A DNA stretch of 64,000 bases from a virus: positions 33,386 through 97,385 of IMG/VR virus record IMGVR_UViG_3300034101_003081; one strand, written 5' to 3'. Each line of letters begins with the position of its first letter. Within the stretch, counting starts at the first letter, position 1. This document shows positions 4,468 to 52,744 of this stretch, in pieces. The position numbers and the translations under genes were made by a program. The notes under the pieces are model-generated. The model was not told the DNA's origin, ran no database searches, and was given only the letters and a program-made list of their open reading frames with translations.

Positions 4468-4497
4468 ATCATACGTCGCGTGCTTAGGCCTGTGCAA
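4468..4497 (-). promoter_or_regulatory. Sigma70-like promoter before 4189-4413
   Basis: Minus strand: TTGCAC (4492-4497), 18-nt spacer, TATGAT (4468-4473). It overlaps the end of the TROVE gene. Confidence 0.55.
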
Positions 4498-5797
4498 GAG
4501 CCTCGCACTCGACGATGTAGCGAATCACGTTTTCAGCGAAGCCGTCAACGTGAGTCCAACCGTCGTGATAGCCGACGCCATGCTGATACGGCGCGACGTT
4601 GATCATGTACGCCGCATCTGCCTTCGGGCGCACAACACGGTCATGCGATTGTTCGTCCGTGACCACGATCAGGCGATCGTGGTCGAACTTCTCGACAGCC
4701 CGAATCGCTTCGCCGAGCAGCGTCCCGCCTCGCGGCTGCGAGAGTTGCACGGCCTCGACGCCAGACAGGCCACGACGAGGAGGCACCTCGACCACTCTGT
4801 CGGAGAATGAAAAGACACGAAGGTCGTCGCAGTTGAGTATTGCCGCGAGCGACGCCGCTGCGTCAAGTCTCGTCAAGTCTGCGCGGCTCGACAGAGGCAC
4901 GTCCATCGAGCCCGAGACGTCGACCAGCACGATCGTCTTGCCTGAGAGCCTCGGCAGTTCGTGGATCGACGCGAGCATCGCGATGTCGAGCGTCGGCTCC
5001 AGCGACGGCGCGGCCTTGGCCGCAGCGACGAAACGAAACGGAAGCACTCGCTCGGCGCCGAGCCTGCCCAAGATCGCGTTCTTGATCAGCGACGTCTCGA
5101 CGCCAGCCTCGACCATGTTCCGTAGGTTGCGGAGCAGGGCGAGGTAGCCGATCTTCTGCTCGCGGATCAGTCGCTCGAACGTGGACTTCTTGTCAGCGCC
5201 GCCTGAGAGCGAGACTTCCCACGTATCGGGAGCAACGAGCGTTCCCTCGACGAGCGATCGCCACAGGCTTGCCTGCTCAGGTGTGTCGGGCTTGGCATGG
5301 CACAGAAATAAGACGTCGCGAAGTTTGATAGCCGACGGCTTGTTGTACTTGGCAAGTTGGTAGGCGTTGAACTTCTTGAACGCCGCCGCGAGGCCTTTCT
5401 TCATCGGGTTCGAGAGCGGCTTCTTGCCGTCGGCCCAGTAGATGGCGACGAGTTCTGCGAGTTCGTCCGCTCGCTGGATCGTGTCGACGATCGCCTGCGA
5501 GACGAGTTTGCCGGAGCCGTGCTTGATCAGCCCCTTGAGCAGGAGCAGCGGAACGTGCCGCAAATGAAACTTTGAGCGAGCCTCGACGGCGAGAGATGCG
5601 ATCTCGTCGGGCGTGACCTTCTCGCACAACGAGAGAATGCGATCCGCAACATCGACGCCATCCTCGTAGTGCGTCGACTCCCACAGCAGGCACGTCAGGA
5701 CGGTGCGTCGCAGTTCCTGGCTGGGCGTGATCCGCACAGCCGGAGCGCCCTCGTGCGTGACTGCGGCATTCGAGGCGGGAGCGGTGTTGAGTCGCAC
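4484..5797 (-). CDS. Ro60-type TROVE/vWA RNA-binding protein
   Basis: 437 residues from the GTG at 5797 (AGGAG 8 nt upstream; the longer frame to 5860 lacks an RBS). Residues ~25-275 look like the TROVE HEAT-like ring: helical, with LRHVPLLLLKGLIKHG and the NAYQLAKYNKPSAIKLRD segment typical of Ro proteins. The C-terminal ~150 residues form a vWA domain with the metal-site motif DVSGS near 294 and the TDEQS strand end. Ro proteins bind Y RNAs and misfolded RNAs, and bacterial Rsr acts in RNA processing with nucleases. No RtcB or PNPase gene is visible. The neighbouring MoxR-like ATPase is a plausible vWA partner. The leader at 5860-6010 holds a direct repeat and a hairpin that could be or control a Y-like RNA. 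Confidence 0.85.
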   Translation of the reverse strand: MRLNTAPASNAAVTHEGAPAVRITPSQELRRTVLTCLLWESTHYEDGVDVADRILSLCEKVTPDEIASLAVEARSKFHLRHVPLLLLKGLIKHGSGKLVSQAIVDTIQRADELAELVAIYWADGKKPLSNPMKKGLAAAFKKFNAYQLAKYNKPSAIKLRDVLFLCHAKPDTPEQASLWRSLVEGTLVAPDTWEVSLSGGADKKSTFERLIREQKIGYLALLRNLRNMVEAGVETSLIKNAILGRLGAERVLPFRFVAAAKAAPSLEPTLDIAMLASIHELPRLSGKTIVLVDVSGSMDVPLSSRADLTRLDAAASLAAILNCDDLRVFSFSDRVVEVPPRRGLSGVEAVQLSQPRGGTLLGEAIRAVEKFDHDRLIVVTDEQSHDRVVRPKADAAYMINVAPYQHGVGYHDGWTHVDGFAENVIRYIVECEALAQA

Positions 5798-5889
5798 GGC
5801 TGGGCTCCTGGCTGATGAGGAAGAGAAATGCTGGCGAGAACAGCGAGGCCGGGGGATCAAACAGCCTTAGTGTGAAGTAACCGGACTCT

Positions 5890-33304: not shown

Positions 33305-35238
33305 CTCGACCGTTCCTTCAGGAAGGCCAGCGTTTCGCTGATGACTTCGCGAGAACGCTTCAACTCTTCGATGCTTCGCTTGGATGGCTTCTTTCCAAGC
33401 ACCTTCTCTGAAACAGACTTCTGGGCGGCAGAGATTTTCTTATTGATGGCAGTCTTGGCCTTGTAGGCAACCTTGCCGATCGCGCCCTTGGCTGCTCCAA
33501 CGACGCTCCCAGTGACGGCCCCTGCGGCAGCGCCGACGACGCCGCCTGCGACGACGCCAAGCCCGGCACCTATGGCAGCGCCCGCTGCTGCATTTCCGGA
33601 GACAGTCGGCTCGTTCGGGTCGACAGGAGTCTCTTCGGCGTCCTCTTTCTTTTTGGCCTTTTCCTTGCCGGCTCTCTTTGGAGACTTGCCGGCACTGCCT
33701 CCAGCGCCGCACGAGTTGTCGACGCCGCCTCCGGAGCCCGTGGCGCAGAACGCTCTCTCTTCAAGGAACTGCTTCGTCTTCGCCAACTCTTCAGCGGCCT
33801 TGGCCTTGGTCTTGTTACGGGCGTCAGCGTGTCCAGACTTCTGGGCCACGAACTGCTGGTAACTCCGCTTCGCAACGGCAACGGTGGCATCGCCATACGC
33901 CGGGTAGGTTACTGGACCGGCGTCCAGTAGAGACTTGATCTTCGTGACAAGCCTCGTAGACCGTCCGCCTTCGTAACTCCACTTCTCGCCGCCTTCTGCG
34001 ACCACGAAACTGAAACTTGAGCCACGCAAGTCTCCTCTCGAAATCGACTCGGCGATGTCCTGGCGAGACTCCGGAAGCAGGCACTCGTACCGCAAGCCCT
34101 TCTCGTCGACGGTCATCTTCATCGTCGTCGGGAATCGGCCCAGGAGGTGGTTGGGGTCGTGATTGAACAGGCAGCGGGTCTCTAGTGGCCTCCCCTCACT
34201 GTCCTCGCGGCTTTCGACAAGCGAGAACGCACCGGGGTCAATTCTCTCGACAAAATCCCCCAGAAGCAACGAATCTTTCCCAAATCGGGCCGCGTACCCG
34301 ACGATGTAGGTCTGCGGCTTGCCCGTGGTCTGATCAGCACGCTTTTCGACCCGGAGAAGTTCTGGGTCAGCCTTCTCGACGTTGCTGAAGTTGCCAAGAA
34401 ACCGACGCTCGACGTTGGGCAGCACTGGGGCACTCCTTTGCTCGGTGGCGAAATAACGCTCGACAGCCTCTCGCAATTCCTTCGCGACGGGCTGGCGTTC
34501 CGGGTCTTCCTCGATTCGCTTCAGGCACTCCTCTCTTGGAGTGTCGATGTGGATGTACTCGACCGGAATATCTGACAGTTGTCCCTTCATCTCGTCGCCG
34601 ATATTCGTGGCGATGATCCACGTCCTGTCGACCGACGGCTGACGAAGGGCCTTTTTGATGATAAGGGCTCTGATGTCCGTACAGTAAGAGATCAGGTTCT
34701 TGTTTTTCTGGTGCGGAGGGAGTCCAGACAGGGCGCTCATTACTTTGTCAAAGTCAAAGACAACGTCATTGTCGCCCTTGTTTTGCATCACGTAGGAAGT
34801 CTTGCCGCTGGCGGGGGCGCCGTGAACGACGAAGACCTTCGGCTTGATGCCTTGTGTTGAGCCAAAGGGCCGCAGCGACCGGCCCTCCGCTTCGTCAGCC
34901 GCGTTCATCTGCTCGACGACCTTGCGGGCATACGCCCACCCGGCGTCGGAGCCCCAAAGAGCCCAGGCGATTCTCCCGTTGGACGGGAAGCCGTCGTCGC
35001 CTGGCTCCCAACCCCGGCCTTTCTTGTCGATCTCGTGCCGATCGAAGTACGCCTTCATGCGACGCACTGTGGCCGGCGAGAGTTTCTTGCCGTTCGACAA
35101 GTCTCGGGCTCTCGCGATACCGACGGCGGTGCCGCCTCGGCCGTGTTCGCGACGCCAGGCGAGGCCCTTCTCGGCCTCCTCGCGGACGCCGTCGGGCGGG
35201 GTGAAGTCGATGTGGGAGTATTTTTCAGGGATTGCCAT
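33301..35238 (-). CDS. Prohead protease fused to a P-loop kinase-like domain
   Basis: 645 residues, ATG at 35238. Residues 1-115 hold a phage head-associated domain (ARARDLSNGKKLSPATVRRM, SNGRIAWALWGSDAGWAYA). ~130-290 is a P-loop domain (VVHGAPASGKTSYVMQ, VVFDFDKVMSAL) similar to zeta-type or polynucleotide kinases. ~300-470 is an HK97-type prohead protease with FNHDPNHLLGRFP (catalytic His) and LRGSSFSFVV (catalytic Ser). A junction motif RAFCATGSGGGVDNSC (~513) follows, then a glycine zipper (GVVAGGVVGAAAGAVTGSVV) and a basic helix. The protease should mature the capsid; the kinase fusion is unusual. Confidence 0.85.
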   Translation of the reverse strand: MAIPEKYSHIDFTPPDGVREEAEKGLAWRREHGRGGTAVGIARARDLSNGKKLSPATVRRMKAYFDRHEIDKKGRGWEPGDDGFPSNGRIAWALWGSDAGWAYARKVVEQMNAADEAEGRSLRPFGSTQGIKPKVFVVHGAPASGKTSYVMQNKGDNDVVFDFDKVMSALSGLPPHQKNKNLISYCTDIRALIIKKALRQPSVDRTWIIATNIGDEMKGQLSDIPVEYIHIDTPREECLKRIEEDPERQPVAKELREAVERYFATEQRSAPVLPNVERRFLGNFSNVEKADPELLRVEKRADQTTGKPQTYIVGYAARFGKDSLLLGDFVERIDPGAFSLVESREDSEGRPLETRCLFNHDPNHLLGRFPTTMKMTVDEKGLRYECLLPESRQDIAESISRGDLRGSSFSFVVAEGGEKWSYEGGRSTRLVTKIKSLLDAGPVTYPAYGDATVAVAKRSYQQFVAQKSGHADARNKTKAKAAEELAKTKQFLEERAFCATGSGGGVDNSCGAGGSAGKSPKRAGKEKAKKKEDAEETPVDPNEPTVSGNAAAGAAIGAGLGVVAGGVVGAAAGAVTGSVVGAAKGAIGKVAYKAKTAINKKISAAQKSVSEKVLGKKPSKRSIEELKRSREVISETLAFLKERSR

Positions 35239-35389: not shown

Positions 35390-38300
35390 TTACTTCCTCT
35401 TCTTTTTCTCGCGACGACGGTCGGCGATCCCGCTCTCGCCGTACTTTGACTGGGCGGCATCGCTTTTTCTTGGCGGCTTCATGTCGACAGCCTTGAACAC
35501 TTCATCGAACTGCTCGTCATTGCGGACATAGCCGAGCGTGACGCCAGTCCAGTACTCAGCCAAGAACTCAAGCGGGTCTGTCATTCCGTACATCGAGACG
35601 TCCATGGCGCGATCAAGCATGTCCTTGCTCGCCCCAGCCGGCGGCTTTGGCTGAGAATGGTCCGCCCGAAAGTATTGATTGTTGTGTATTGCGGAGATGG
35701 CGTCCATGACTTGATTTCTGAACCGGCCAACGAAATCCGACGTTACCTTGTCCTTGCCGCCTGCCCACGATGCAATCACGTCGTGCTGTAACTTGTGTGC
35801 GTATTCGTGCAGGACATAGTGCGACGGGTCGTCGGTCGAAAACCAGCCCCTGTCGTACGCTCGCGAGAGAGACTTCTCGTCGTCGGCACGATCTTGGATG
35901 ACAGTGATCTCTCCGTTCTTCAGATTACACGCCGCTTTGGCTCCGACCATCGAGGCGGCAAGCCTGATCTTCTCGATGATGCTAGTGATGCCTGCCTCTG
36001 CGGCGAATGTGTCTACCGTCGCGTTGAACTTCGAGAAGTTGAACGACGAGTCCTTGAGGCCAGGAGCGTGCTTGGCGGCGAGAGCCAATTTCGCCAAGTG
36101 ATTGGCCGCTGACTTTGCCGGGTCTCCTGTTAAGAAAGAAAAAAAGCCGGGCTTCTTGCTGGCGTCACGGTCGAACGAACCGTCGATATCGAACGACGTG
36201 AACCCAAGTTGCTTTGCCACCTCGGACGGCGGCATGGACTCCATCAGAAACGCGATGTCCTCTGCCGCGTGCTTGGCGTTTCCTCTGTCGACGTGTTCTC
36301 TGACTCGCTTTATGGCAAGCGGATTTGCGGCATCGCTATACGCGCCTTTGGATGGCCTTGGGCTTTCTTGGCCGCTGCCTTTGTCCTGGCAGTCGTTCTT
36401 CGGCCCGAAACGTCCGTCGTCGTCCCTCCCGCAGTCGGCAGAGCGAGACTCGACCCACTCATAGTCATCCAGTTCCCCGTCATCCCAAATCTCGTTCCAC
36501 ATTTCATCAAGCCGCAGCATGTCCTCGGGGGACAGCCATTCGTCGCCAGACCCGAGCGGCATTTCGCGACGATCGGTGCCGAACTTCTTGATGAAGCGAT
36601 CCATGATTTTGGACTGCGGGCTCGACCTGTCTTTCAAGTCGAACGTAACGTCCAAGTCTTCGCCGTTGTCTCTCCACCAGCGGGTGCCCTCGGGGGTGGC
36701 ATGGAGATCGAGCAGAGACTTGGCGTGCGACAAGTCTGGCGGCAGTTTCGACTTGATGCTCGCCGGGAGTGGTGCATCAAACCCCATGCGGGGCCAGATC
36801 GTGTAGCCACGCCATGGAGTGGCCGTGACGCCGCCTTTGGTAGCAGACGAGTTCCCGGCCGCGTTGAGGACGATGCGAGACACGCCTGACTTACGGGCCG
36901 CTTCAACGGACGAGACCATGGCTCGGTAGAACTCGCGAGCAGCGGCGTGCCGCTTTGCGTCGTCGCCTTTGATGGCGTCCGCGACGTTGACCGTGCTGTG
37001 GTAAACAACCGTCTCGCCAGCAGCCGTGACGCCGATCACCGACGAGCCGTGCAGGCCGCCGCCTACGCCGGCGAAGTCCCGCTCGAAGGCGAACATCACA
37101 GGCGTGACTTTTGAGTCTGGAAACTCCATAGAGAAGTCTGGGGCAGGGCGGACGAACACGTCCGAATCTTCGCTGCCGCCGGCGACCATTGGGGCCAACT
37201 TCGGGTCGATGCCAGCCGCATCGAGCGACGACTTCACTGTCTTCGGAGCCGAGATGTTGATCGAGCCGTACCGGCCGTCGCCAAGCGGTGGCGAGGACGA
37301 ATCTCGCGATGTCTCAGGCCACGTCAGCGACTCGCTCGAAGACCAGCGATCGCCTCCAGGCGAGGCTGTCGCTTGGCCGGGGGAGTCGTCTGCGCTGCAC
37401 GAGTTGTCGACGCCGCCGCCTTCTCCCGTAGGGCAGAAGGCGCGGGCGTTTCGGCGATTCTTTTCGAGAACGTACCGGCCGTAGCGATTCAGGCGAGCGC
37501 CGAGCGACTCGTACGCCTTCTTTGCGGCGGGCGCTACATTATGCTCCTCGTCTGAGATTACATCGAACTGCTCAGACATGGAGTCTAGCAGCGACTTGTA
37601 GGCTCCCTGTCCCCTGAAAGGCTTAGACACTTCCGAGTAATGAACGTACAGTGCTTTTTTGTCAGAAGACAAATCCACATGCACGAACGCCTTCACTTTG
37701 CTTTTGTCGTCGAGGAGGCTGACGACGTGGCTCGCCGCTTCATCGCGACCGGGGGGCTTGTTGCCCTTTGTGTTTTGTTCCAGAAACCATTTGCCGTGCT
37801 TTGTGGAGCCAGTCGCGTCAACCTTTCCCATCCATGATGGCTGTCGAACTGCGTCCCCGCTGCTGCCTCCATCCTTCGACGAGCAGTCATTCTTGACGCC
37901 GCCGCCATCTCCGGTTGGGCAGAAGGCGCGAGACTCTTCAGGGGACTGCATCAGCCACGGCCGCACCTTGATGTGCTGGTAGCCGAGCGGCTCGTCGCCG
38001 TCGCCCTTGCCCTCGGCACGGCTCGACTTCTTTTTCCGCTTCGCCAACTCTGCCTTGATGATCTCTGGGCCGATCTTCGAGGCGTAGGCATTCTGGGCTG
38101 CGTAGTTGCCGGTCTTCTCGTAGACGGCGTTCTGGCCGAACGTCTCGGCGAAAAGAGCAGGCCACGCGCTTTCAGGGAGCGTCGAGGCATGGGTCAGCAT
38201 GCCGTTGTATTCGCCGTTGGTCGAGAACGAGTAGCCGCCGCGAACGTGCGCGACCATGTCATGCACGACCCGGAATAGGTCGTTGGCGATCATGGGCTCG

Positions 38301-47455: not shown

Positions 47456-48760
47456 TCACAGTAAGATGATCTCCGGATCGGCCATCTTTGGTGCAGCCTC
47501 TGCGTCGCTGGCGAGTGCGAGAGCCATGACGAGAGCGATCATGCCGTCCACTCTGGCCGGGCTCATGGCAGACGGCTTCGCGATCTTGATGTAGCCATCG
47601 GCATTGGTCTTGATCGTGCAATTTCCGGCCATCCAGTTCAGGATCGGGTTGTCGCTCGTTCGCAGTCGCCCCTGCGAAATCAGCCCGTCGAGTGCGCGAG
47701 TAGGCGCATTCATGGCTGAAAAGTTCTGGGAGAAGCCTAACACGTCCAATCCTTCGGCCTGAAGTTGTTGGACAAGGTAATGGGAGTTGTATGGGTCGGT
47801 GGCGATCCGCCTGAGAGTCCGCTCCTTGGCAAACTTCAAGATGTCCCGCTTGATGAACTCGTAATCACATGTGTCGCCAGGCGTCAGCGTCAGGCCGGTC
47901 TTCGGGTCTTTAGCCCACTGGATGTACGGCACTTCTTCGCGTCGGGTGTCAGCGTTGTCGGCAGGAATCCAGAACTTGCAGATCACGTCGAACACGTCGT
48001 CGTGGGCCTTCGAGACAGCCACGAAAGCGTTGACGTCCCAGGTTTGGGCAAGGTCGAGCCCGCCGTACCAGACCCGCGACGAGTCGAGCAGTCCGGAGTG
48101 GCCCTTGCACTGCTCCCACTGGGTCAGGTTCACGAACTTCTCTGTGCCAGCCACCCAGACATTGAGCCTGTACCGCAAGAACGACGAGAGCCTAGACGGC
48201 GACTGCTCGGCCTCGCGGACGTCCGCCTTGAAACTCTCCTCGTCCATGGTGACGCCGAAGGACGGATTTGCAGCCCGCCAAACTGCTGGGTCGCGGTAGT
48301 CATCTTCAGCCGTGGCCGCCGCGATGTAGGCGAAGTACTGGGGATCGAGACTTGGGTCTTGCATGACCTTGAGGGCATGCTCGTGCTGCTCGTAGCAGAT
48401 CGACGACCTGTCGTAGCCGGCCGTAGTAATCGCCAAGACTAGGCTCTGGCTGCGAGAAATACCGCCGTAGCGGATCGCATCCCAAAGTTTTCTGTCCTTT
48501 GCGGAGTGCAACTCGTCATAGCACAGGGAATGGATATTGAGCCCTTCTGCCCGGTGGCTGTCGCTAGAGATAACCCGCCAGAATGAGTTCGTCGGCACGC
48601 AGGCGATTGTCTTGCGGGAGTCGACGATCTCCAGACGCTTGGACAGGTACGGGCTGGAGCGGACAAGTTCCGCCATCTGCTTGTAGACGATCCCTGCTTG
48701 ATCGCGTGACGTTGCCGCCCCGAAGCACTCAGCGGCTGGCTCGGAGTCGGCCACCGTCAT
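47456..48760 (-). CDS. terL: Large terminase subunit, main reading frame after the insert
   Basis: 434 residues from ATG 48760, but homologous sequence continues upstream in the same frame to 48794 (KSTLLSGISLYM), so ATG 48760 is probably not the true start. Walker B is SLCYDELH, the coupling motif ITTAGYD follows, and the nuclease segment carries GGLDLAQTWD, IATDPYN and the late RVDGMIALVMALA. A protein starting at 48760 would lack Walker A and could not package DNA. With 48821-49123 joined across the 51-nt insert the protein is complete. Confidence 0.85.
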   Translation of the reverse strand: MTVADSEPAAECFGAATSRDQAGIVYKQMAELVRSSPYLSKRLEIVDSRKTIACVPTNSFWRVISSDSHRAEGLNIHSLCYDELHSAKDRKLWDAIRYGGISRSQSLVLAITTAGYDRSSICYEQHEHALKVMQDPSLDPQYFAYIAAATAEDDYRDPAVWRAANPSFGVTMDEESFKADVREAEQSPSRLSSFLRYRLNVWVAGTEKFVNLTQWEQCKGHSGLLDSSRVWYGGLDLAQTWDVNAFVAVSKAHDDVFDVICKFWIPADNADTRREEVPYIQWAKDPKTGLTLTPGDTCDYEFIKRDILKFAKERTLRRIATDPYNSHYLVQQLQAEGLDVLGFSQNFSAMNAPTRALDGLISQGRLRTSDNPILNWMAGNCTIKTNADGYIKIAKPSAMSPARVDGMIALVMALALASDAEAAPKMADPEIILL

Positions 48761-48796
48761 GTAGAGCGAAATGCCCGAGAGAAGAGTCGATTTGCC

Positions 48797-48847
48797 TTGT
48801 GACGACCTTGGCCCCCGCGGCTACCACGCCGTGGGGGCCAAGGCGCC
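48797..48847 (-). other. 51-nt hairpin-bearing insert in the terL Walker A codons
   Basis: Read on the minus strand, terL runs ...AAA AAT GGC, then 48 nt, then GGC AAA TCG ACT. Removing one GGC plus the 48 nt restores PKKNGKSTLL exactly. The 48 nt hold an 11-bp perfect stem (CCTTGGCCCCC / GGGGGCCAAGG, 48806-48843), an inner CGGC/GCCG stem and an in-frame TAG (48821-48823) in the loop. Matching GGC codons flank it. It is the only copy in the window. Confidence 0.8.
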
Positions 48848-49123
48848 ATTTTTTTTGGGCACCTCGATGTAGCCAACCCTGAACCTTCGCGTGTCGTTGT
48901 CGACCCGCATCCAGCCGAAAAGTTCCTCGATCACCTCGTCCTTCTGCCAGGGAAGGAGAGTGAACGGCTTTCCGGCGAACTGACCCTTGGAGTGGATCAG
49001 AAAGTTCTCGAAGAAGCCGACAGCGTGGGCTGCCTTGGCCTCGTCGAAGTAGTAATCGTGTCCGAGACTAAGCGCCTCGGCTTTTGATATACGCTTCCAG
49101 CGGGTCTTCTTGGGCAGCGGCAT
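48821..49123 (-). CDS. terL: Large terminase subunit, N-terminal reading frame
   Basis: 100 residues, ATG at 49123, overlapping the end of terS. It starts MPLPKKTRWKRISKAEALSL and contains PFTLLPWQKDEVIEELFGW, the normal terminase N-terminus. It reads to VGYIEVPKKNG, where Walker A should continue KST, then runs into eight extra codons (ALAPTAW, stop TAG 48821). Same frame as the main body, so the lesion is an in-frame insertion, not a shift. Confidence 0.8.
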   Translation of the reverse strand: MPLPKKTRWKRISKAEALSLGHDYYFDEAKAAHAVGFFENFLIHSKGQFAGKPFTLLPWQKDEVIEELFGWMRVDNDTRRFRVGYIEVPKKNGALAPTAW

Positions 49124-49532
49124 TCGATACCTTCATGGTCGACCGGGCGGCGGCAGTCATGCCGAACTGTTGCTCGATTCGCATCAGTTCCCCCGGCAGG
49201 CTCTTGAACAACGACCCCTCCGCTGTCAGTTGGCTGTACCCAGTCTGAGTCAACTGGGTCATGCCATTCTCTTGGACGTGCTTCACGACATGGAGCCACT
49301 GCTCGTGCATGAGGCAGTACCGCTCGATGACGCTCCGGTCGGCCTGGGTGAAGACGCCCATGCTCGACAAGAGCGGAACGATCTCGTTCCACATGTCGAG
49401 GGCCGGGCCGCCGAGTCGGGCCGGGGGAGACGTGTCCGCCGGAGGCGGCTTCGGCTCGTCAGTGTTGATCGGTCGCTGGCCCGGATTGCCCCGGATGACC
49501 TTCAAATTGGTGGGAGTTGGTGGACGTCCCAT
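49068..49532 (-). CDS. terS: Small terminase subunit (P27-like)
   Basis: 154 residues; the ATG at 49532 (MGRPPTPTNLKVIRGNPGQR) is preferred over the longer frame to 49709, which lacks an RBS and reads through basic, low-similarity sequence. The opening GRPPxPxxLKxLxGNPG is the family signature, followed by helices LDMWNEIVPLLSSMG and MHEQWLHVVKHVQENG. It recognises packaging sites for TerL. The tandem repeats at 49771-50088 lie directly upstream and are candidate binding sites. Confidence 0.85.
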   Translation of the reverse strand: MGRPPTPTNLKVIRGNPGQRPINTDEPKPPPADTSPPARLGGPALDMWNEIVPLLSSMGVFTQADRSVIERYCLMHEQWLHVVKHVQENGMTQLTQTGYSQLTAEGSLFKSLPGELMRIEQQFGMTAAARSTMKVSNAAAQEDPLEAYIKSRGA

Positions 49533-49770
49533 GATGCCGACTACTTTTTTCGGCGGCTCCTCGGTCTTCCAGGGTGGCCGACGGAAATATGCGTTTTCTC
49601 GGGCAAAAAGCCCCCTCGAAAAGTTTCGCAGCCGCTCACGGAAGGGCGCAGGCTGGGTCTTGGCCTCATTTTCAATTTCGGCCAAGACACTCCCCCGGAG
49701 TGGGCACAATCAAGACTCGCACAGAAGCCAAGTCCAGTAAAGTAAAAATCTTCTCTGGATTTTTTGGCAG

Positions 49771-49854
49771 GCATGAGCATGAGCATGAGCATGAGCATGA
49801 GCATGAGCATGAGCATGAGCATGAGCATGAGCATGAGCATGGGCATGAGCATGG
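49771..49854 (+). repeat. Hexamer tandem repeat (GCATGA)n
   Basis: Eleven perfect GCATGA units followed by three with single changes (GCATGG/GCATGA/GCATGG). All three frames stay open on both strands, so ORFs here are artefacts. Lies upstream of terS. Confidence 0.9.
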
Positions 49855-49864
49855 GCCGGGCAGG

Positions 49865-50056
49865 CATGGGCTTGGCCTGGCATGGGCTTGGCCTGGCATG
49901 GGCTTGGCCTGGCATGGGCTTGGCCTGGCATGGGCTTGGCCTGGCATGGGCTTGGCCTGGAATGGGCTTGGCCTGGAATGGGCTTGGCCTGGAATGGGCT
50001 TGGCCTGGAATGGGCTTGGCCTGGAATGGGCTTGGCCTGGAATGGGCTTGGCCTGA
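49865..50056 (+). repeat. 16-mer tandem repeat, 12 copies
   Basis: Unit CATGGGCTTGGCCTGG six times, then AATGGGCTTGGCCTGG six times (last base of the final unit changed). The block change at one base suggests two rounds of amplification. Non-coding. Confidence 0.9.
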
Positions 50057-50088
50057 GCATTGGCAGGCCTGAGCATTGGCAGGCCTGA
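50057..50088 (+). repeat. Second 16-mer repeat, 2 copies
   Basis: Unit GCATTGGCAGGCCTGA twice, then a degenerate third copy. Same length as the preceding repeat, different sequence. Confidence 0.8.
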
Positions 50089-50300
50089 GCATTGGGCTGG
50101 GCCTGGCATGATTTCCCCAGCCAGCAGGCCTGGATTTCCCCAGCCAGCCCCGCCTTGCTTTGTGGGAACCCGAGAACCTCTCTTCTCCTGTTCAAGTCTT
50201 TCCCTATATAGGAGGCAAAACGCTATTATCATTCGAGTCTGACTCCCGTTTTTGACCCTTTCCTACTTGGAGACCTCTGCTTTTGGATTGGTAGTTCCAA

Positions 50301-52588: not shown

Positions 52589-52672
52589 AGTGCTGTCCCT
52601 CCTTGGACGGCACTGATTTTACGACTCTTCTTGAGGTCACCCGAAGTTCTCGATCTTCTGCCAGCCAAAAAC

Positions 52673-52744
52673 GCACGCCCGAGGAATCGAACCTCGCCAG
52701 TCAGATTTGGAGTCCAACTCGCCAGCCTTGGAACATTGGCGTGC
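52673..52744 (-). tRNA. tRNA-Trp (anticodon CCA)
   Basis: The 7-bp acceptor GCACGCC/GGCGTGC is perfect, the T arm CGAGG-TTCGATT-CCTCG is perfect, and the anticodon loop CTCCAAA has CCA at 52708-52710 on the minus strand. The anticodon stem has two G-U pairs and the D arm is weak. No CCA end is encoded; the discriminator is G at 52672. It lies 2 nt after the pilin-like gene. Confidence 0.8.

Follow-up and report, generated by a model that had tools for sequence, protein, structure and literature searches.

A Hairpin Insert in the Walker A Codons of Phage terL Genes as a Candidate Translational Bypass Element

The Interrupted terL Locus

The DNA analyzed here, referred to as the window, is a 64,000-nt stretch of a virus (positions 33,386 to 97,385 of IMG/VR record IMGVR_UViG_3300034101_003081). 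On its minus strand the terminase gene terL is interrupted inside its Walker A codons by a 51-nt insert (48844-48794). Read in minus-strand order, the codons CCC AAA AAA AAT GGC are followed by the insert, which ends in a second GGC, and then by AAA TCG ACT, which encode KST from position 48793. If the 51 nt are left out, PKKNG joins KSTLL and the Walker A motif of a terminase results. The upstream terL open reading frame comprises 100 codons, and the 97-kb virus record contains no second terL. The features of the locus, with the putative take-off and landing codons named according to the interpretation developed below, are as follows.

49068..49709, minus strand: terS (Terminase_4), by domain match; context
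48848..49123, minus strand: 5' part of terL (MPLPKK...IEVPKKN), the upstream ORF, which shares 66-97% identity with relatives across this region
48849..48856, minus strand: A8 run in the AAA AAA AAT codons, near-invariant among carriers (GAGGTGCCNAAAAAAAATGGC)
48845..48847, minus strand: putative take-off codon GGC, the Gly of Walker A
48797..48844, minus strand: 48-nt non-coding gap, made up of a hairpin (5' arm, 6-nt loop, 3' arm) and a single-stranded spacer
48821..48823, minus strand: in-frame TAG in the hairpin loop region
48794..48796, minus strand: putative landing codon GGC
47456..48793, minus strand: 3' part of terL (KSTLLSG...), with the remainder of the ATPase and the nuclease domain (PF03354, PF20441)

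The hairpin in the window has 15 pairs over 16 positions plus a basal extension and closes on a 6-nt loop; the corresponding inverted repeat (48806-48821/48828-48843) is 94% complementary. The folding energy of the 51-nt segment is -38.8 kcal/mol (z = -5.95), a value equaled by none of 200 shuffles, and the segment forms the strongest hairpin of the whole window. A scan of the window against Rfam at gathering thresholds gave no match to group I or II introns or to any other curated RNA. The element occurs as a single copy, and a dispersed repeat of the phage genome was rejected as its identity.

A preliminary description of this DNA had already placed a hairpin insert within the Walker A of terL, and the present analysis bears this out, with a length of 51 nt and a position on the minus strand. 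The interval given there (48797-48847) consists of the take-off GGC plus 48 nt and is an equivalent placement to 48844-48794. The in-frame TAG that it reported lies at 48823-48821, and the identical GGC codons that it noted at the borders are present in the window, with matching codons recurring across the other elements. Its A8 run upstream of the insert is also real (48856-48849) but is better described as directly adjoining the take-off codon on its 5' side in the coding strand. Finally, its statement that the insert keeps the reading frame holds for the window copy but is not general, as the lengths of 37 distinct elements are 0, 1, and 2 mod 3 in 11, 7, and 19 cases, respectively.

Several other features of the window were observed. 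The phage genome encodes a TROVE (Ro60-like) protein that weakly matches von Willebrand A (4487-5860, minus strand) and a tRNA-Trp gene (52672-52744, minus strand). Another strong, GC-rich hairpin lies between convergent genes at 2719-2757 (36104-36142 of the 97-kb record), is also found in a relative (G004), and is probably a bidirectional terminator.

Distribution among Related Terminases

A scan of IMG/VR with the protein encoded by the downstream part of terL recovered 45 relatives, to which a profile-based scan added more. Distant TerL groups yielded further carriers in pattern scans, and when one of these TerLs was itself used as the query, a second large clade emerged. The comparison with related terL genes that the preliminary description had proposed thus shows the hairpin recurring at Walker A in 49 contigs including the window (33 in the TerL group of the window and 16 in more distant groups), with empty and intein-bearing alleles coexisting beside it. 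TerL identities among carriers fall as low as 38%. The Gly and Lys codons of PKKNGKST directly flank the insertion, except in L028 and L222, where it lies one codon upstream, and three further contigs (L041, L033, and L045) carry a similar hairpin elsewhere in terL. In relatives, three states are found at the Walker A codon: uninterrupted PKKNGKST, the hairpin insert, and an intein ending in HN|STLL. Empty alleles with exact flanks exist (L004). Hairpin-bearing alleles cluster on the TerL tree, yet at least four to six changes of state are required, and the 97%-identical group to which the window belongs contains alleles with the hairpin, with an intein, and with neither.

Searches beyond these viral relatives were negative. 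No significant match to the element was found in cultured phages or plasmids, and a search of GTDB genomes for TerL relatives returned only a 27% identical match from Marinilabilia. Among the gene-breaking strong hairpins inspected in 1.23 Mb of related contigs none resembles the terL element; on inspection, these other candidates looked like gene-junction terminators or the result of spurious frames. A pattern built for the hairpin type of L041 and L033 matched those two contigs and gave five chance matches that lack a comparable hairpin. A literature search of open-access papers found no account of a terL hairpin element.

Conserved RNA Structure and Geometry

Lengths, loops, and codons were counted over the 37 distinct elements. 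Insert length ranges from 39 to 52 nt, and the geometry is fixed in that the loop begins 16-18 nt past the take-off codon in all 37. An alignment of 20 sequences has 93.5% of its cells paired over 20 positions, and six pairs covary with changes on both sides, a score reached by none of 500 shuffles. Variation in the stem, read on the coding strand, includes 49 G-U cells versus only 2 A-C cells, which identifies the folded and conserved molecule as the sense RNA rather than DNA or the other strand.

In 35 of the 37 elements the codons at the two borders agree at a minimum of two positions, versus 22% of same-frame control codons, and in 23 they agree at all three, although these are not 37 independent events because most copies share ancestry. 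Matching also involves codons other than those for Gly and stays in codon register, as in L041 (CCG to CCG) and L222 (AAT to AAC). L033 and L016 match at two positions only, with a middle or first mismatch, and the exceptions are L045 (TGG to AGA) and L028 (AAT to ATC). The A8 run is present in 30 of 32 P-loop carriers versus 13 of 49 empty alleles (Fisher p 8e-10, kinship ignored). The codon after the take-off codon is a sense codon (GCC, GTC, and others), and the first in-frame stop falls at +18 to +24 if it lies within the gap and otherwise beyond it. Folding of the flanks is slightly stronger than in empty alleles on both sides (p 0.06 and 0.02, kinship ignored), and an SD-like motif lies near the landing site in 18 of 32 carriers.

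Selection for a Joined Product

In the tree set, none of the 25 distinct carriers has a stop in either half of the gene. For carriers the median omega is 0.20 in the half before the insert and 0.17 in the half after it, compared with 0.18 and 0.17 in uninterrupted alleles, and the downstream half of the window differs from that of its nearest carrier, L003, with a dN of 0.0049 and a dS of 0.466. Given open halves and omega values like those of uninterrupted alleles, selection sees a product that holds both halves. This goes further than the view, expressed before these comparisons were made, that decay is less likely: with both halves under purifying selection, decay is ruled out.

The downstream half has neither a workable frame nor a start of its own. 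In most carriers a stop occurs in the downstream frame 6-33 nt before the Lys codon with no start codon between, and in the window no start codon lies between the TAG and the Lys codon. Nonetheless, the seven codons beginning with the Lys after the insert show 1883 synonymous versus 372 non-synonymous pairwise differences between carriers, so these codons are translated although they lack their own start. Internal initiation cannot make KST in most carriers because of the stop just upstream and the absence of a start codon between them. Likewise, since the inserts occupy all three frames, neither a single frameshift nor readthrough can explain them; programmed ribosomal frameshifting was accordingly rejected, as inserts of 0, 1, and 2 mod 3 share the same flanks. 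An intein was rejected as the identity of the hairpin insert, which is 39-52 nt long and often out of frame or provided with a stop. With frameshifting and an internal start excluded, ribosomal skipping or RNA splicing remain.

Probable Bypassing and Its Alternatives

Judging from the comparative sequence evidence, we consider it likely that the terL hairpin is a programmed translational bypass element. A bypass like that of T4 gene 60 had been suggested in the preliminary description, and it appears to be the best-supported reading, as matching codons, a hairpin, a gap of about 50 nt, and an in-frame stop recur. The ribosome would translate ...PKKNG as far as the take-off Gly codon and stall at the hairpin of 18-20 bp that begins directly 3' of it. 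With Gly-tRNA kept in the P site, it would then release the take-off codon, pass over 39-52 nt, and pair again with the Gly codon that immediately precedes AAA TCG ACN, which would yield an unbroken PKKNGKST Walker A and a full-length TerL. The A8/KKN stretch may stimulate the hop. Sliding in T4 gene 60 is processive up to 56 nt (PMC11194080), a distance that would cover every insert seen here.

Excision at the RNA level, by some splicing activity that would cut the mRNA on either side of the hairpin and rejoin it as if the insert were a mini-intron, is unlikely in our judgment. The hairpin is indeed a structurally conserved RNA, and if the RNA were joined behind AATG, Gly would be regained in the P-loop carriers too, L016 with its TGC among them. 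However, the borders differ among insertion positions (GGC, AAT, CCG, and TGG), the border repeats (GGC, CCG, and AAY) are in codon register, which splicing does not need, and the insert is too short for group I or II introns, in keeping with the negative Rfam scan of the window. We favor skipping over splicing because the border codons match, the take-off codon and the loop lie a constant distance apart, the border sequence varies among insertion positions, and AAA AAA AAT is near-invariant. It is very unlikely that the insert is instead removed from phage DNA before terL expression or that the sequences reflect a population of alleles. Although the empty alleles have exact flanks, as would fit such removal, the one nearest the window lies at a dS of 0.74 and is for that reason another phage rather than an excised copy; no two near-identical sequences were seen to differ in carrying the insert, and the covariation favors the RNA sense strand, with G-U rather than A-C.

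The proposal that terL is made as two assembling polypeptides, for which an ATG 33 nt past the Lys codon of the window could serve, is highly improbable. KST and its flanking codons are kept as protein, yet in most carriers they precede any start and follow a stop, and the catalytic Lys and Thr/Ser would be missing from the C-terminal polypeptide. Translation of the insert itself through stop suppression or frameshifting, with the extra residues tolerated, can scarcely be credited: the window copy keeps frame and the TAG is its only stop, but lengths elsewhere fall in all three frames with the same flanks, for which one frameshift is insufficient, and at least 13 residues inside the P-loop would destroy it. 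Equally hard to credit is a pseudogene or an assembly artefact, even though a stop codon stands within an essential catalytic motif. Assembly error, which the preliminary description had named as a finding that would refute it, is contradicted by the 49 contigs from many metagenomes, and both stem covariation and a level of purifying selection equal to that on intact alleles argue against either version.

Probable Mobility and Inteins at a Neighboring Site

The elements of L191 and L242 are 98% identical over 59 nt, whereas their TerLs are about 39% identical, and the similarity fades about 15 nt outside the element on either side. An earlier suggestion that the insert is a mobile element is supported by such near-identical DNA and by the occurrence of the insert at the same codon in TerLs 38-56% identical. 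From these patterns we infer that the element probably spreads horizontally between phages together with short flanks. In clade B the Walker A of 37 of 38 distinct empty alleles reads PKKN-Ala-KST, but Gly is present in 6 of 6 distinct carriers; this may mean that flanking DNA is carried along when the element moves, as happens in co-conversion at homing, or that Gly-tRNA is required for the hop. The large TerL clade L240-L318 has the Walker A PKKNAKST, in which Ala replaces the usual Gly before Lys.

Relatives also carry inteins at the terL Walker A, at GK|S (L041:1963-2970, L033:582-1589, L270, and L276), 3 nt from the hairpin site, which agrees with the earlier remark that inteins favor the P-loop of terminases. 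Those of L041 and L033 contain a LAGLIDADG_3 domain, and the same terL genes also bear the hairpin element, at P|K with take-off codon CCG. L045 has a 132-aa mini-intein at GK|S (L045:2566-2961), in which no endonuclease domain was detected, and farther downstream in its terL, at W|D, a 52-nt hairpin insert (L045:3266-3323). A hairpin at Walker A would interrupt the endonuclease target, and the element probably spreads by sitting in the homing target of the LAGLIDADG intein and making that target resistant. More tentatively, and as a reading somewhat less likely than not, we hypothesize that mobile hairpin-driven bypass elements home into the terminase Walker A and replace LAGLIDADG inteins or immunize against them, the DNA target being destroyed while the protein is kept by hopping. 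An HNH gene near terS is present in carriers and empty alleles alike and was on that account rejected as the element's own homing enzyme. Between terS and this gene the window contains tandem-repeat arrays (49771-50110; a 6-nt unit repeated 13.8 times and a 16-nt unit repeated 15.4 times).

Apart from candidates, the known cases of programmed bypassing over tens of nucleotides are, to our knowledge, one phage gene (T4 gene 60) and those of yeast mitochondria. With dozens of natural variants, the requirements for hopping (hairpin, distance, codon match, and A-rich approach) would become readable from comparative data. The element also suggests a third route, beside introns and inteins, by which an essential gene can hold a harmless insert. 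Gene callers would take hairpin-bearing terL genes for broken ones.

Comparison with Known Systems

Rickettsia palindromic elements are inserted inside protein genes, keep the frame, and are translated. The terL element is likewise palindromic, but it breaks the frame and holds stops. The LAGLIDADG inteins of L041 and L033 resemble it in lying at Walker A (GK|S) and in leaving a functional TerL; they differ in relying on protein splicing, in bringing their own endonuclease, and in their size of about 336 codons.

Bypassing has also been proposed in the terminase gene of Streptomyces phage Hau3, where the candidate is linked to a UUA codon and may have a regulatory role (PMC5009743). As outlined in the part of that source concerned with it, the Hau3 case does not involve a deleterious insert, and a hairpin element of the present kind is not described there. 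The byp elements of Magnusiomyces capitatus, as summarized in the same source, are closer to the terL element in being short skipped inserts at several positions that allow imperfect codon matches; they are mitochondrial, number 81 copies in 12 genes, and are described as independent of mRNA context (PMC5009743), whereas the terL element is restricted to phage terL and built on a conserved hairpin.

The likeness to T4 gene 60 extends to a phage gene, a non-coding gap of about 50 nt containing a stop, matched Gly take-off and landing codons, and a hairpin that includes the take-off site (PMC11194080, PMC5009743, PMC3014915). Protection against a homing nuclease has been proposed, according to one of these accounts, as the origin of the T4 gap (PMC5009743). 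The terL element differs in its much longer hairpin (16-20 bp) and in the A8/KKN stretch before the take-off codon, and it comes in dozens of natural variants, in all frames, at several positions, and in several TerL groups. T4 gene 60 also has a nascent peptide of the KKYK type, 5' and 3' stem-loops, and an SD-like sequence close to its landing codon. In T4 gene 60 the stop lies directly 3' of the take-off codon, whereas in terL it is not adjacent. Because a stop directly after take-off is absent, we place the terL element outside the T4 type and propose that it represents a variant of programmed bypassing.
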